Positions 56,719-64,000 of a stretch of 64,000 bases of DNA are shown here, in pieces. This stretch comes from Paracoccaceae bacterium (GTDB lineage Bacteria; Pseudomonadota; Alphaproteobacteria; Rhodobacterales; Rhodobacteraceae): the NCBI GenBank assembly GCA_022843025.1, contig JALHOL010000007.1, positions 186,001-250,000 on the forward strand. Reading direction: 5' to 3'. The notes under the pieces are model-generated. The model was not told where the DNA came from and did no database searches. It saw only the letters and a list, made by a program, of their open reading frames with translations. Position 1 is the first letter of the stretch. Every line of letters starts with the position of its first letter. A program made the translations under genes and the position numbers.

Positions 56719-58533
56719 CTATCCTTGCGCGGTTAGAAAGCCCCGCCAACCGCCCAGATGGGTGATCTCCTGCGCGCCTCCCACCCCTGCCGCCTCGGCC
56801 AGAAAACCCACAGCAAGCCGACCATCCGCCAGCTCGACCTTCCCAAGCCCCAGCGGCGCGGGGATCAGCGCCAAAAACGCCCCTACCTGCGCCAAAGGCA
56901 GCGCCCAGACCTCCACCTCGATCGCGGCCCCGCCTTCGGCCCGGATCATCCCCGGTCGGGCCGGGGGCGGTCCCGGCAGCCGGAACAGCCGATACTTGGG
57001 GGCCGTCGCCGTCCGCTCCAGAAACCGCCCGCCAAGCCCCGCAATCTGCCCGTTCAGTGGCAGCCCGGTCATATGCGCGCCCACAAGCACCACCGCCATC
57101 TCGCCCGGCAACGCCTCAGCAACCGGCGCAGGCGCGGCGGGAATGCTCCATCCCGTCGCCCCCAGCCGACCGCCCGTATCCGACTGGATCGCCGCGCCCA
57201 GCGCCGCGATCTTCGCATCCTCCCCCGCCCGCGCCAGCAGCGTCACGCTGCCGGGTCGCCCATCGCTGCGCGGCCCGGTCGGCACGGCGATGCCGCACAT
57301 GTCCAGCAGGTTCACGAAATTCGTATAGGTCCCCAACCGGCTGTTCGGCCCGATGGGATCGGCCTCCAGATCGGCGAGGGTGTAAAAGGTCGGGATCGTC
57401 GGCACCGCAAGCAGGTCCAGCCCCGCCATCGCCGCCATCGCCTGCCGCTTCAACGCCGCAAGCCGATAGATACCCCGAAACGCATCCGCCGCCGTCAGGC
57501 GATCCGCCCCCCCGATGATCTTGGCCGTCACCGGATGGAAGGCCTCCGGCTGCGCGCGGAACAGCGTCTCCACCGCTGCCATCCGCTCGGCCACCCAAGC
57601 CCCTTCATACAGCATCTTCGCCACGTCGTAGAACGGCGTGAAATCCACCTCCTCCACATGGCATCCCATGGCCCGCAGCGCCGCCACCTGCCCCGCAAAC
57701 GCCGCGGCCTGCACCGCATCGCCAAAAAACTCGATGCTTGCCGCATCCGGCACGCCCAGCCGCATCCCCACCGGCACCGCGGCCAGCGCGGGCGCTGGCA
57801 TCACCCGCGACCATGGATCAACCCCGTCAAAGGCACAGGCCACCCGATACGCCGCCCAGGCATCCGCCACTGTCAGTCCGAAGATGGAAATCGTGTCCAG
57901 CGTCCGGCAGGCCGGCACCATCCCCGTCCCCGACAGCGCGCCCAGCGATGGCTTCAACCCCACGATATTGTTCAGCGCCGCCGGCACCCGCCCCGATCCC
58001 GCCGTATCCGTCCCCAGCGAAAACGACACCAGCCCCCGCGCCACGGATACCGCCGATCCGCTTGACGATCCGCCGGGAACAATCTCGGGGTCCAGCGCAT
58101 TGCGCGGCACCCCATAGGGCGACCGCACGCCCACCAGCCCGGTCGCGAACTGATCAAGGTTGGTCTTGCCGATCCACACCGCCCCCGCCGCGCGCAGCCG
58201 CGCCACCACAAAGGCATCCTCCCCCGGCACATAGGCAAAGGCCGGACAGCCAGCCGTCGTCGGCACGCCGCCCACATCGATATTGTCCTTCACCGCAAAC
58301 GGCACCCCCCAAAGCGGATGGGCAACAGGATCAAACGGCGGCAACCCGGCCACCTCGGCCAGCGCCTCATCCCTGTCCCGCAGATGCAGGAACATGGCCG
58401 GGTCCTCTGCCGCCGCGATGCGGGCAAAGACCTCCTCCATCACCGCCACAGGCGACAGGCCCGCAGCATAGGCCTCATGCAGCCGCGCGATGTCGAACGG
58501 CAGGTCGGAAAGGTCTGTCTTTGTCATCATCAT
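56719..58533 (-). CDS. atzF: Allophanate hydrolase
   Basis: 604 residues, expected length for AtzF without the urea carboxylase fusion. The amidase-signature N-terminal domain holds catalytic Lys82 (VKDN), cis-Ser near 156 (PGGSSSGS) and nucleophile Ser180 (DTAGSGR). The C-terminal ~150 residues are the AtzF_C domain, which finishes decarboxylation and ammonia release. Allophanate is hydrolysed to ammonia and CO2. Three tandem ATGs (58533/58530/58527) make the start ambiguous. The cupin gene upstream ends 2 bp away. Last gene of the operon. Confidence 0.93.
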   Translation of the reverse strand: MMMTKTDLSDLPFDIARLHEAYAAGLSPVAVMEEVFARIAAAEDPAMFLHLRDRDEALAEVAGLPPFDPVAHPLWGVPFAVKDNIDVGGVPTTAGCPAFAYVPGEDAFVVARLRAAGAVWIGKTNLDQFATGLVGVRSPYGVPRNALDPEIVPGGSSSGSAVSVARGLVSFSLGTDTAGSGRVPAALNNIVGLKPSLGALSGTGMVPACRTLDTISIFGLTVADAWAAYRVACAFDGVDPWSRVMPAPALAAVPVGMRLGVPDAASIEFFGDAVQAAAFAGQVAALRAMGCHVEEVDFTPFYDVAKMLYEGAWVAERMAAVETLFRAQPEAFHPVTAKIIGGADRLTAADAFRGIYRLAALKRQAMAAMAGLDLLAVPTIPTFYTLADLEADPIGPNSRLGTYTNFVNLLDMCGIAVPTGPRSDGRPGSVTLLARAGEDAKIAALGAAIQSDTGGRLGATGWSIPAAPAPVAEALPGEMAVVLVGAHMTGLPLNGQIAGLGGRFLERTATAPKYRLFRLPGPPPARPGMIRAEGGAAIEVEVWALPLAQVGAFLALIPAPLGLGKVELADGRLAVGFLAEAAGVGGAQEITHLGGWRGFLTAQG

Positions 58534-58535
58534 TC

Positions 58536-58868
58536 TCAGGTCACGAATTCCACAGGCAGGTTCCACTGGATCAGCACCGTGCAGCCCGTCTCGGACCACA
58601 CCGAATGCTCCGTCCCCTCGGGGTTCAGGATCAGCGACCCGGCAGGATAATCCCCCCGCTCGTCGCTCTGCACCCCCTCCAGCACAAGGATCGTCTCCAG
58701 CGCCGGATGCCGATGGCGCGGCACCCCCGCCCCCGGCGCATAACGCAAAAGCGCCACTCCCGGCGCCCCCGCGCGCAAGACGGCGATTTCCACACCCTCG
58801 CGGAAGGGAAGGAACTCCTGCCGCCGCCAATCCATCAACAGCGCGGCAAAGGCCTGCGGATCATCCAT
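58536..58868 (-). CDS. ChrR-like cupin in the biuret operon
   Basis: 110 residues, single cupin. Metal-binding pattern [14 protein letters not shown] with a later His in [22 protein letters not shown] is typical of the ChrR-like cupin_7 group. No sigma-factor partner is adjacent. It may be a small metalloenzyme acting on an intermediate or a sensor. The start at 58868 overlaps the hydrolase stop by 8 bp, so it is translationally coupled to it. Confidence 0.82.
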
Positions 58869-59538
58869 GCAGCGCCTCGACGATCTCGGCGGTGGTGGCC
58901 GTCCAGCCGACAATGGCCCCCTGCGCCCGGATCATGGCAATGGCCGCCGCCTTGAACTCAGGGAAGTAACTCTCGGTCGAATCCTCGGCCAGCAGGCACT
59001 GAAACCCGCGATCATTCGCCTCGCGCATGGTGGTTTGCACGCAAACCTCGGTCGTCACCCCGGCAAAGATCAGCGTCGTCACCCCCATCCGCGCCAGGAT
59101 CGCGCCAAGGTCAGTGGCGTAAAACGCCCCCTTCCCCGGCTTGTCGATCACCACCTCGCCCGCCACGGGGTACAATTCCGGCACGATATCCGCCCCCGGC
59201 TCGCCCGCGATCAGGATACGCCCCATCGGCCCTTCGTCGCCAATCCGCAGGCGCGGATTGCCCCGGTCCCGCTTGGCGGGCGGCAGGTCGGAAAGGTCGG
59301 GGCGGTGGCATTCCCGCGTATGGATCACCGGCACCCCCGCCGCCCGCGCCCCCCCGATCAACGCGGCAACCGTGGGGATGATCGCCTGCAACCGCGTCAC
59401 GTCATTGCCCAGCGTCTCGCCAAATCCGCCCGGCTCCACAAAATCACGCTGCATGTCGATGACGATCACCGCCGTCTTCGCCCGGTCAAAGGCAAAGGGG
59501 AACGGCTGCGCCGCCGCAATCACCCGCATCCCGCTCAT
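58861..59538 (-). CDS. Isochorismatase-family amidohydrolase, BiuH paralog (candidate triuret hydrolase)
   Basis: 225 residues. Triad Asp28 (VIDMQRDF), Lys133 (DKPGKGAFY) and Cys166 ([18 protein letters not shown]). The C-terminal region differs from BiuH (no CCGATD after the MREANDRGF block), so substrate differs. Known relatives hydrolyse biuret, ureidoacrylate (RutB) or triuret (TrtA); no rut genes are present here, while BiuH and AtzF are, so TrtA-like action is a fair guess. Its ATG overlaps the ABC ATPase stop by 4 bp. Confidence 0.8.
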
Positions 59539-61085
59539 GCCGCATGCCCGCCCATGTAATGACCGATCTCGGCAATCTTCGCCTCGGCGGCGGGCACCTC
59601 ATATGTGATCCGCCCCTCCGACATCACCAGCACCCGGTCCGACAGTTCCAGCACCTCGTCCAGATCCTCGCTCATCAGCAAAACCGCCGCCCCCGCATTG
59701 CGCGCCGCCACGATCCGCGCGCGAATTTCGGACACGGCGGCGAAATCCAGCCCGAAACAGGGGTTGGAAATGACCAGCAGCTTCACCTCGCCCGTCAATT
59801 CCCGCGCCAGCACCGCGCGTTGAACATTCCCGCCCGACAGCGCCGCAATCGGCCCGTCCGGATCGGCCACCTTCACCTTGAACGCCCCGATCAGATCACG
59901 CGCCGCCGCCCGCATCTGGTTGGCCGAAAGCCAGAACCGCCGCCCCGCGCCATCCCGGTCGAAACTGCGAAAGGCGATATTCTCGATCACGCTCATCCGC
60001 GGCGCGCAGGCATTGCGCAGCGGCTCTTCCGGAAGATAGCGCACCGCATGGGCCTGCGCCTCGGCCCGCGTCGCGCCGTAAGGCACGCCCTGCACCCGTA
60101 TCTCGCCCGCCCGTGGCGCGCGCTGCCCGGTCAGAACCTCCATCAATTCCATCTGCCCGTTGCCTGAAATCCCGGCAATGCCCGCGATCTCTCCGGCATG
60201 GACGGTCAGGCTTTCAATGGCGATCTCCTTCAATCCCGACCGATCCGCCGCCTTCACCCCCCGCACCTCCAACACGGGTGCACCGCGCGCACCGCTACGG
60301 GCCACGGGCCGCTGTTCTTTTTCCGCCCCGATCATCATCGCCGCCATCTGTGCATGGCTCAGATCGGCCACATGCCCCTGCCCCACCAACCGCCCGCGCC
60401 GCAGCACCGATACCTCATCGGCAAAGGCCGTCACCTCGCGGAACTTGTGGGTGATCATCAGCACCGAAATCTGCCCGGCCTCGCACAGCCCGCGCACATG
60501 GCCCAGCACCTCATCCGCCTCATCCGGCGTCAGCACGGACGTGGGCTCGTCCAGGATCAGGAACCGGCTGCCCAGATAAAGCTGCTTCAGGATCTCCAGC
60601 TTCTGCTTTTCCCCTGCCGCCAGCCGCGCCACCGGTTGATCCAGCGGCACGCGAAAGGGCATGGCGGCCATGAACGCCTCTAGCCCCGCCCGCTCTTTCG
60701 CCCAGTCGATCACCACCGGCGCATTCGCGCGCGAGATGGCAAGGTTTTCGGCCACGCTCAGCGACGGCACCAGCGTGAAATGCTGATAAACCATCCCCAT
60801 GCCCAGCGCGCGCGCATCGCGCGGATCGCCAATCTCTGCCTCGCGCCGCCCCACCAGCAATTGCCCCGCCGTGGCGTGGTAGAACCCCATGATGCACTTC
60901 ACCAGCGTGGATTTGCCCGCGCCATTCTCACCCAGCAACGCGTGAAACGTGCCGGGCGCCACCCGGATCGACACATCCTCCAGCGCGGTAAAGGCCCCGA
61001 ACCGCATGGTCATTCCCACCGTTTCCACCTCCAGCGCGCCGGGGGCGTGTGGCTCGGCCCCAATGCCGGTAACAGGCGGCCTCAT
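59535..61085 (-). CDS. BMP-type ABC importer, ATP-binding protein (two domains)
   Basis: 516 residues with two ATPase domains. Domain 1: Walker [10 protein letters not shown], signature [12 protein letters not shown], Walker [12 protein letters not shown]. Domain 2 is degenerate at Walker A (GISGNGQME) and B (ISNPCFGLD), as usual for this ribose/nucleoside-type family, with [15 protein letters not shown]. It energises the two permeases upstream. The start at 61085 overlaps biuH by 4 bp. Confidence 0.93.
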
Positions 61086-61759
61086 ACCAGCGCCCCGATC
61101 AATGTGGCGCTGTCGCTCACCGCACCAAAGACACCGCCCTGCATGGTGACCATCTTCAACGCCGCCGCATGGTTGCCCGCATCCGTCGCCCCGCAGCAAT
61201 CGGCCAACACAAGGCATTCAAAGCCCCGATCATTCGCCTCGCGCATGGTGGTGGACACGCAGACATCCGTGGTGATCCCGGTCAGGATCAGGTTGTCGAT
61301 GCCCCGCGTCCGCAAGATCAGCTCAAGGTCGGTGGCGCAGAACGACCCCTTCCCCGGCTTGTCGATGATCGCCTCTCCCGGCAGGGGGTAAAGCTCGGGG
61401 ATGATGTCCCACCCCGGCTCCCCCCGGATCAGGATCTTGCCACAAGGCCCCGGATCGCCGATCCCCGCCCCGATCTGCTGGCTGCGCCACCGCTTGTTGG
61501 GCGGCAGGTCCGCCAGATCGGGCCGATGCCCCTCACGCGTGTGGATGATGTGGTATCCTTTGGCCCGCATCGCCTCCAGCACCGCCTTGATCGGCGCAAT
61601 CGGGGCCTGCGTCATCGACAGGTCATAGCCCATCATGTCCACATAACCGCCCTTGCCGCAGAAATCGGTCTGCATGTCGATGATGACCAGCGCGGTATTC
61701 TCCGGCCGCAGATCGCCGTTCCACGGCCAGGCATAGGGATTGGCGTCTATCGTGGTCAT
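61082..61759 (-). CDS. biuH: Biuret amidohydrolase
   Basis: 225 residues. Hydrolyses biuret to allophanate and ammonia. Triad Asp28 (IIDMQTDF), Lys134 ([10 protein letters not shown]) and Cys167 ([18 protein letters not shown]) sits at a constant offset of 8 from the Asp36/Lys142/Cys175 of the characterised Rhizobium enzyme. Shared stretches include [18 protein letters not shown] and [10 protein letters not shown], and the closing [16 protein letters not shown] precedes the ATG at 61759; an upstream ATG at 61771 overlaps the permease stop by 4 bp and is an alternative. Confidence 0.93.
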
Positions 61760-61767
61760 CCTGCCCC

Positions 61768-62691
61768 TCATTTTGTGATAGAAAGCTCGCCCGGTGCACC
61801 CGCCAGCGCACGGTTGGGCGAAGACGTGGCGATCAGCACACCCAGCGTCAGAACATATGGCGCGGCGTAGAACAGGTAATACCCCTCGGTCACCCCCACC
61901 GATTGCAGCGCCGGGCCCAGCGCGCCTGCCCCCCCGAACAGCAGCGCCGCCCAGAAGCAGTTCATCGGCTGCCAGCGCGCAAAGATGACCAGCGCCACCG
62001 CCATCAACCCTTGCCCGCTCGAAATCCCTTCATTCCAACTGCCCGGATAGAACAGCGACAGATAGGCCCCGCCCACCCCCGCAAAGGCCCCGCCCAGCGC
62101 GGTCGCCATCGTCCGGATCACCGCAGGCCGCAGCCCCATCGCCCGCGCCGCATCGGTGCTGTCGCCCACCACCCGCAGGATCAGCCCCGGCTTGGTGGAC
62201 CGCAGCCCCCAATGCAGCACCAGCGCCGCCGCGATGCCCACCAGAAACAGCACATTCACATTCAGCGCCGCCTGCACCTGCGGCACCTCCGACCACCAGC
62301 CGAACGGGATCGACGGCAGGTCAGGCGCCACCGGCTGGATGAAGGGCTTGCCGAAATAGAAGGCCAGCCCCGTCCCCAGCAGCATCATCGCAATCCCGAT
62401 GGCGATGTCGTTCACCTTCGCCATCGAACAGATCAGCCCATGCACCAGCCCGAACACTGCGCCCGCCAGCGCCGCCAGCACCACCCCGGCCCAAGGGTCG
62501 CCCGTCACCACGGCGGTCGCATAGCCCGCCATGGCGCCAAAGACGAGCGTGCCTTCCAACCCCAGATTGATCCGCCCCGACCGCTCTGTCAGCATCTCGC
62601 CCAGCGATACGAACAGGATCGGCGTCGACACCCGGATCGCCCCGCCCAGCACGGCCAGCGGCACGGCCCAAAGGCCAAGGTCATACTCCAT
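61768..62691 (-). CDS. BMP-type ABC importer permease 2
   Basis: 307 residues, about ten helices. [25 protein letters not shown] and the [19 protein letters not shown] block are typical of permeases in purine nucleoside/ribose-type importers (BmpA group). The start at 62691 ([12 protein letters not shown]) is chosen. It is 4 bp downstream of permease 1. Confidence 0.92.
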
Positions 62692-62695
62692 CGCC

Positions 62696-63775
62696 CTACC
62701 CCTTTGCCTTGAAGAACGCCAACCGCCCATAGGCCGCGTCCGACATCAGGATCGCCATGAACACGATCCCTTGCAGCACCTGCATCGTGGCATCGGGCAG
62801 GTCCATCCGCCGCTGGATCAGGCCCGATGACGCATCAAACCCCGCAAGGAGTATTGCCACCGGAATGATCGCCATCCCGTTATGCCGCGCCAAAAAGGCG
62901 ATCAGGATGCCCGTATAGCCATACCCTGCCGCCAGCGACGCATTCGCCGACCCATGCACCGCCGCCACCTCGAAGAACCCTGCAAGCCCTGCACAGGCCC
63001 CGCCCAGCGCGGTAAACCCAAGGATCAGCCGCCCCACCGGCAGGCCCTGCACCTCCGCCGCGCGCACGTTCCCGCCCGCGATCCGCGCTGCAAAGCCCCA
63101 CCGCGTCCGCTCCACCAGAACCCAGGCCACGACGCAGGCTATAGCCCCGAAAACAAGGCCCCAATGCACATCCATTCCGGGGATCATGCCCACCCGCAGC
63201 GCCTCATCCAGCGGCGCGGTCGATGGCTTGTTCAGGCTTTCAGGGTCGCGCAGCGGCCCCTCGACCAGATGGTTCATCAGCGCAATCGCGATATAGGCCA
63301 GCAGCAGGCTTGAAATCGTCTCGTTCACCCCCCGGTAATGGCGCAGCGCCCCGGCCATCCCGATCCAGACCGCGCCCACCGCCATCGCACTTGCCGCCAT
63401 CAGCGGCAGCCCGATCACCGCAGGCACCCCAGCCAGCGGCAAAGCCACCGCCCCGGCGGCCAACCCGCCCAGAACGATGGCCCCCTCGCCCCCGATCACC
63501 ACAAGGCCCAGCCGTGCGGGCAAAGCCACGCACAGCGCCGCCAGCAACAGCGGCGCCGCCCGTGACAGCGTGTTCATCCAAGAAAAGGCCGATCCAAAGG
63601 CCCCTTGCCAGACATAGCCGAAAAACGCGATGGGCGACCGGCCCTGCGTCAGCAGGAAAAGCGCAAACACCGCCAGCCCCGCCAGAAGCGCCAGAACCGG
63701 GATCACCACCGGTTCCGCACGGCGCAGGGCCGCCATGGCCCCGCCCCCTGTCACCTGCGCCTCGACCATCGCCAT
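62696..63775 (-). CDS. BMP-type ABC importer permease 1
   Basis: 359 residues, about nine to ten helices. ALPARLGLVVIGGEGAIVLGG is the permease motif matching the partner. The membrane pair with the two-domain ATPase takes up a small molecule, probably biuret, triuret or another ureide given the operon. The start could also be two codons later (MVEAQ). Confidence 0.92.
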   Translation of the reverse strand: MAMVEAQVTGGGAMAALRRAEPVVIPVLALLAGLAVFALFLLTQGRSPIAFFGYVWQGAFGSAFSWMNTLSRAAPLLLAALCVALPARLGLVVIGGEGAIVLGGLAAGAVALPLAGVPAVIGLPLMAASAMAVGAVWIGMAGALRHYRGVNETISSLLLAYIAIALMNHLVEGPLRDPESLNKPSTAPLDEALRVGMIPGMDVHWGLVFGAIACVVAWVLVERTRWGFAARIAGGNVRAAEVQGLPVGRLILGFTALGGACAGLAGFFEVAAVHGSANASLAAGYGYTGILIAFLARHNGMAIIPVAILLAGFDASSGLIQRRMDLPDATMQVLQGIVFMAILMSDAAYGRLAFFKAKG

Positions 63776-63787
63776 CGCCCCGGCCCC

Positions 63788-64000
63788 TTACGACGTCGAC
63801 CCGATCACACCCTCGACAAGGTATCCCATGCCCTCCAGCACCGGATCCGTCTCAAGGAAGGCTTCGCCATCGGCAGCCACCACATTGCCCTGATTGTCCT
63901 TCAGCGGCCCTTTGATCACGCTGAACCCGCCCTTCTCGATCTCGGCCTTCACCGCCTCGAACTGCACGCGTCCTGCCTCCGGCACGGCCGGACCCAGTGG
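63788..64000 (-). CDS. BMP-type ABC importer substrate-binding protein, C-terminal part
   Basis: Cut by the right edge. The visible 70 residues (FSVIKGPLKDNQGNVV, ending YLVEGVIGSTS) match the C-terminus of BmpA-like periplasmic binding lipoproteins. It ends 12 bp before permease 1. The missing N-terminal part should hold a signal peptide and lies outside the window. Confidence 0.8.
   Translation of the reverse strand, partial: PLGPAVPEAGRVQFEAVKAEIEKGGFSVIKGPLKDNQGNVVAADGEAFLETDPVLEGMGYLVEGVIGSTS

Follow-up and report, generated by a model that had tools for sequence, protein, structure and literature searches.

A probable triuret and biuret nitrogen-scavenging operon with its own importer in a Paracoccaceae bacterium

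The operon and its genes

The window, a stretch of 64,000 nucleotides from a Paracoccaceae bacterium (G000:C7:186001-250000, in a genome of 3.9 Mb), ends in a set of eight co-directional minus-strand genes that runs from 64945-equivalent to 56719 and continues beyond the window end. The order is BMP-type binding protein, permease 1, permease 2, BiuH, ATPase, TrtA, cupin and AtzF (Table 1). From the gene identities, the catalytic and specificity residues, the conservation of the operon and a pocket change in the ureide-linked binding proteins, the set is read here as a triuret/biuret nitrogen-scavenging operon with a dedicated ATP-binding cassette (ABC) importer, with a probability of roughly 0.8. 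Triuret and biuret are nitrogen-rich relatives of urea that occur as impurities of urea fertiliser and as products of uric acid oxidation.

An earlier, sequence-only reading of the window had listed eight genes in this direction and order, joined by short gaps and overlaps. All eight are present as described, on the minus strand, and their junctions range from overlaps of up to 8 bp to gaps of up to 12 bp; the divergent LysR gene had been overlooked. With the most likely start codons assumed, the gap is 12 bp between the binding protein and permease 1 genes and 4 bp between the two permease genes. Permease 2 and BiuH, BiuH and ATPase, and ATPase and TrtA overlap by 4 bp each, TrtA and the cupin by 8 bp, and the gap between the cupin and AtzF is 2, 5 or 8 bp, set by the choice among three ATGs. 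The full binding-protein gene occupies 63788-64945 equivalent (host contig, L006), and the SRRDLLRG near the start of its product resembles a twin-arginine signal. Among the matches listed, the best named relative at the locus is Tabrizicola sp. TH137, with a TrtA that is 92% identical.

Table 1. Genes of the operon and its divergent neighbour (window positions)
Gene product	Position	Strand	Basis and remarks
BMP-family (PnrA-like, AtzT-like) binding protein	63788..64000, cut at window end	-	Pfam Bmp, E 1.4e-36; best PDB match 6pi5 (AtzT), E 1e-57
ABC permease 1	62696..63775	-	Pfam BPD_transp_2, E 1.7e-27
ABC permease 2	61768..62691	-	Pfam BPD_transp_2, E 8e-34; start 62691 favoured over 62730
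BiuH, predicted biuret hydrolase	61082..61771	-	NCBIfam NF050097
ABC transporter ATPase	59535..61085	-	Pfam ABC_tran, two stretches = two domains
TrtA, predicted triuret hydrolase	58861..59538	-	Pfam Isochorismatase; best PDB match 6xix (Herbaspirillum TrtA), E 9e-87
Small single-domain metal-type cupin	58536..58868	-	Pfam Cupin_7, E 1.8e-19
AtzF, predicted allophanate hydrolase, amidase and AH_C domains	56719..58533	-	TIGR02713; Pfam Amidase and AH_C
LysR, divergent from the operon	starts 65102-equivalent		Pfam family assignment

The protein predicted to be BiuH scores 423 bits against the curated cut-off of 370 (NF050097), is 82.8% identical to Rhizobium leguminosarum BiuH and agrees with it at 13 of 13 diagnostic positions. 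The residues of its triad, D32-K138-C171, stand at the same distances (106, 33) as those of the Rhizobium D36-K142-C175, as the sequence-only reading had claimed. The second isochorismatase hydrolase, left unnamed in that reading, is TrtA by its residues, 13 of 13 of the diagnostic ones matching Herbaspirillum TrtA, whose structure is 6xix. Its triad D28-K133-C166 is spaced (105, 33) like the Herbaspirillum D24-K129-C162; it is 63.3% identical to that TrtA versus 50.5% to BiuH, and its score of 256 bits lies below the BiuH cut-off of 370. The reference triads are numbered after PMC5806882 and PMC7948467, and PMC7948467 lists the residues that distinguish TrtA from BiuH, here tested (Herbaspirillum numbering) as F35, N41, A134, E160, Y187, Q202 and I205. 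A second BiuH at this place was considered as well and is ruled out by the diagnostic residues.

The putative AtzF scores 762 bits against a cut-off of 511 (TIGR02713), and the second-best AtzF-like match of the host reaches 121 bits. The amidase residues claimed for it are there: the K-S-S catalytic residues K81, S155 and S179 align with K91, S165 and S189 of ADP AtzF, and the C-terminal AH_C domain is present. S189 is named in PMC6219798. The route from biuret through allophanate to ammonia and CO2, earlier described as complete, has its enzymes, but biuret is not the first substrate. Since the second hydrolase is TrtA by every residue test, the predicted pathway begins at triuret and passes through carboxybiuret.

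Conservation of the operon and its transporter

The neighbourhoods of TrtA were compared in two sets of loci. The first holds 80 named loci, the best of 575 confirmed TrtA-type matches, a choice biased to close relatives, together with the host locus and the pRL10 locus of Rhizobium johnstonii (leguminosarum) 3841. The second was drawn from 300 Burkholderiales genomes (47 with a TrtA match, 40 taken) and 398 Pseudomonadota genomes (matches in 37, of which the 36 other than the host were all taken); three of the Burkholderiales matches not taken coincide with L079, L211 and L233, and four were left out (G397, G428, G464 and G502). When loci with identical TrtA are counted once, 153 distinct loci result, of which 103 carry BiuH and the transporter, 3 carry BiuH only and 47 carry neither within the flanks read. 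Some of these 47 end at contig edges, many have a TrtA-like gene that is more remote, and in several cases the genome contains another match, in the BiuH range, at a different place. The TrtA residue pattern, with only position 134 left free, occurs in 103/103, 3/3 and 45/47 of the three groups, respectively. In every one of the 103 operons the gene of the transporter ATPase stands between biuH and trtA, and from this interleaving the arrangement is more than chance.

The host family was surveyed separately in 198 genomes, drawn evenly from 197 genera. Close relatives of the binding protein (at least 600 bits, at least 74% identity) number 19, after which there is a gap to matches of 53%, 48% and about 34-38%. 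All 19 lie in genomes with a TrtA/BiuH match, of which there are 25 among the 198, and TrtA of at least 280 bits occurs in 19 genomes, 18 of which carry a close binding-protein relative (Fisher p 2e-23, kinship ignored). In 18 of 19 cases the two share a contig; in G017 the genes are on two contigs. The earlier claim of a complete operon for ureide breakdown that brings along an ABC importer is supported by the interleaving and by this linkage. The proposed check, whether homologous transporters are kept with purine genes instead, was run: the close relatives sit in triuret/biuret genomes in all 19 cases, and the purine-type paralog belongs to a different branch.

Three findings count against the reading as a triuret/biuret scavenging operon. 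AtzF is present in only 61 of the 103 operons within the flanks read, atzD, the cyanuric acid gene, is present in 13, and G130 lacks this transporter but has a TrtA-like gene.

Two further features were seen in these neighbourhoods. A formamidase-like gene, absent from the window, occurs in 51 of the 103 operons (for example L007:7650-8663), and its pRL10 copy scores 587 versus 406 bits (NF009803). An open frame at L081:19581-20027, near a TrtA operon, resembles a detached AH_C domain as judged by eye.

The cupin and the carboxybiuret step

The cupin is a protein of 110 amino acids for which AlphaFold2 (AF2) gives a confident cupin model (mean predicted local distance difference test score, pLDDT, 92.8), and all 64 sequences compared share its metal ligands, HxH-x3-E and H. 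In each of the 63 cupin operons the first annotated gene behind trtA is the cupin, and the flanks read around these operons contain neither AtzE nor AtzH-like genes. The 103 operons divide into these 63, 29 with AtzE and/or AtzH-like genes and no cupin, and 11 with neither within the flanks. In eight of them an AtzH-like gene is next after trtA, within 95 bp in seven and at 788 bp in L086. Seventeen of the 198 family genomes hold a stand-alone cupin (>100 bits), and its coordinates place it next to TrtA in every case. Two operon-bearing family genomes have no cupin match: G118, where a contig end cuts it, and G153, where an AtzH-like gene follows AtzF in place of the cupin, in the one such operon in the host family; no AtzE match was found in the G153 genome at E up to 1e-60.

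An AtzH-like gene also lies in the operons of L070, L085 and L086, and their genomes have no AtzE match. AtzH-like proteins there are unlikely to serve AtzEG because no AtzE match is present, which would leave carboxybiuret decarboxylation as the step for them and, by analogy, for the cupin. The exchange of cupin and AtzH-like genes thus points to a candidate for this step, and the cupin is predicted to be a carboxybiuret decarboxylase.

The competing explanation, to which we give a little less than even odds, is that the cupin is a regulatory, metal-sensing or enzyme-stabilising accessory and not a pathway enzyme. It draws on the nearest sequence and fold matches of the cupin, which are cupin domains of ChrR anti-sigma factors. 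The protein lies outside the ChrR family, however, being a single cupin with a score of 35.7 against a cut-off of 124.5, and its 110 residues leave no room for a sigma-binding domain. The constant place after trtA, the lack of AtzE and AtzH-like genes in the flanks of cupin operons and the absence of the cupin from G153, where the AtzH-like gene is present, also argue for a pathway enzyme. The exclusivity is local: AtzE-type genes occur elsewhere in 2 of 10 cupin-operon genomes checked (L016, 373 bits; L043, 254 bits), and the G125 genome combines a cupin operon with a distant AtzH-like gene. Nor is it statistically independent, because the cupin label needs only about four changes on the TrtA tree (2 duplicate rows dropped), too few independent pairs for significance, so that as an argument against an accessory role it is statistically weak.

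A point from the literature adds to those that count against a decarboxylase role for the cupin: carboxybiuret decays spontaneously with a half-life of about 20 min by a published estimate (PMC7948467). The sequence and family of TrtB, the known decarboxylase, were not found in the papers searched, and the Burkholderiales AtzD loci gave no lead either. TrtB could be a relative of the cupin or of the AtzH-like protein. Where trtB is missing, the comammox authors describe the carboxybiuret step as unidentified or spontaneous (PMC12625717).

A different use of AtzH-like genes may be seen at L151 (G130), L215 (G547), L231 (G890) and L268 (G407), where TrtA-like genes have AtzE and AtzH-like genes nearby and the genomes show no second BiuH-range match at the cut-off used. 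These loci point to a triuret pathway that avoids biuret by way of AtzEG and AtzH. Eight 'solo' loci have AtzE and AtzH-like genes, and the genomes of L227, L240, L241 and L276 hold a BiuH-range match elsewhere.

Ligand of the binding protein and known systems

The binding protein belongs to the BMP/PnrA-like family (PF02608) by its Pfam match and by an AF2 model of the L008 copy, with a template modelling (TM) score of 0.87-0.88 to AtzT. Its nearest solved structures are AtzT and 3s99. The transporter had been assigned to a family usually tied to nucleosides; this wording is loose, since these two relatives bind purine bases and AtzT also binds hydroxyatrazine. According to PMC6834077, AtzT holds guanine through Tyr45, Ser97, Phe98, Glu165, Trp194, Asn218 and Asn220, behind which lie Asn169 and Thr139, and hydroxyatrazine in like manner.

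At the nine pocket positions (45/97/98/139/165/169/194/218/220, AtzT numbering) the residues Y-S-F-Q-Q-N-W-H-D are found in 106 of 117 ureide-linked proteins. Position 165, Glu in both AtzT and 3s99, is Gln in 114 of the 117, the host protein included. Linkage was assigned by genes seen in the locus for 100 of these proteins and by coordinates for 17, the one of G017 lying on another contig than its TrtA. Paralogs of the host family, 17 sampled from about 180, show W-S-F-R-E-G-W-H-D, the 3s99 pattern, in 15 cases including the host copy L148; L137 and L150 depart from it. Five further unlinked or second copies have Glu165 in four cases and Leu in L218, and a protein beside TrtA without BiuH (L071) reads YSFEQNWHD. 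A quick tree built from 70 of the 142 rows places 43 linked proteins in one group (support 90), with a warning of long branches. The replacement of Glu by Gln, together with the Gln at 139, would suit a neutral ureide.

A purine base or a cyanuric acid-like ring, imported as by AtzT while the ureide enzymes process intracellular breakdown products, is an unlikely alternative ligand, although the closest solved relatives take guanine, adenine and 2-hydroxyatrazine (PMC6834077). Most AtzT pocket residues, S97, F98, N169 and W194 among them, are kept in the operon protein, which makes a purine-like or triazine ligand conceivable, and three linked proteins lack Gln165: L081 and L086 (both TrtA/BiuH-linked, WSFHSNWHD) and L281 (BiuH-linked, WSFHTNWHD). 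In the tree the three exceptional linked proteins fall with two unlinked ones. These features and the atzD-bearing operons weigh against a ureide ligand. On the other side, the Glu165 that bonds purines is replaced in nearly all linked proteins, the host has a separate purine-type paralog directly beside xdhC (L148:531-6275, G000:C5), and by family assignment no operon gene resembles a purine-to-triuret step. No AtzD match was obtained in the host genome with a query that detected AtzD in 21 of 300 Burkholderiales genomes. A generic nucleoside importer was rejected in view of the linkage in all 19 family genomes, the Gln165 pocket and the separate tree group. That the set is a triazine operon that has lost atzD is very improbable: atzD does lie inside the same operon at pRL10, but it is so rare among complete operons that it looks like an occasional addition, and cyanuric acid as the main substrate was discarded for this reason and for the missing AtzD match.

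Three other BMP loci were noted. At L149:6078-8151 (G013), in a genome with no TrtA/BiuH match, a divergent binding protein (WSFHLTWHD) and its transporter stand beside a DUF1989 protein and probably take another nitrogen-rich ligand. L150 (G125:C6:674547-675653) is a second transporter copy on a long branch; its pocket reads WSFHFNWND, about 6 kb separate it from an AtzH-like gene, and one TGA was counted inside its match. At L071:15800-18700 purine-type and ureide-type binding proteins occur together with TrtA, AtzG and AtzE.

In the proposed operon, the binding protein would capture triuret, biuret or both in the periplasm for import by its partner ABC transporter. TrtA would convert triuret to carboxybiuret and ammonia, the cupin may turn carboxybiuret into biuret and CO2, BiuH would hydrolyse biuret to allophanate and ammonia, and AtzF would release ammonia and CO2 from allophanate; regulation of the operon is probably the task of the divergent LysR protein. 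Two new specialists may be involved jointly: the first BMP binding protein tuned to open-chain ureides by the Glu to Gln change, and a metal-dependent cupin as the missing alphaproteobacterial carboxybiuret decarboxylase, interchangeable with the unrelated NTF2-fold AtzH-like protein. We put this pair forward tentatively, as a proposal that could well fail. Literature searches found no paper stating how bacteria import triuret or biuret, none measuring the ligand of this ureide-linked binding protein, and none on biuret transporters or on the BMP family with biuret. The conserved pocket change could correct the present 'nucleoside transporter' label.

Several parts of the operon have counterparts elsewhere. 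The TrtA-BiuH-AtzF trio of Herbaspirillum sp. BH-1 is the same as in the host, with identical TrtA diagnostic residues (PMC7948467). That paper's main text does not discuss a transporter or cupin ('abc' and 'cupin' do not appear, 'transporter' occurs once, in a reference title), and PMC5806882 likewise has a main text free of the words 'transporter' and 'ABC'. AtzT of Pseudomonas sp. ADP (6pi5/6pi6/6pii) shares the fold and most pocket residues with the host protein at 36% identity, but has Asn218/Asn220 where the host has His/Asp, besides the difference at 165. An ammonia oxidiser (PMC12625717, 2025) has trtA/biuH/trtB/atzF with bmpA-nupABC, so that ureide genes stand beside a BMP ABC transporter as in the host; there the transporter is labelled nucleoside, trtB is reported and the word 'cupin' is absent from the main text.

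The closest counterpart is the BiuH locus of pRL10, the plasmid on which BiuH was discovered, in which binding protein, permease, permease, BiuH, ATPase, TrtA and cupin follow one another in the same order and direction as in the host, the binding proteins being 73.4% identical. Its full order is binding protein, permease, permease, formamidase, BiuH, AtzD, ATPase, TrtA and cupin; it differs in the formamidase and atzD inside, in having no adjacent atzF in the stretch read and in a divergent GntR gene where the host has LysR. Since the interleaved order is shared with pRL10, and PMC12625717 reports a BMP transporter next to triuret genes, the layout is already known. Judged from sequence, the operon is ordinary in layout and well supported in function, and it yields two predictions, a ureide-specific binding protein and a cupin decarboxylase.

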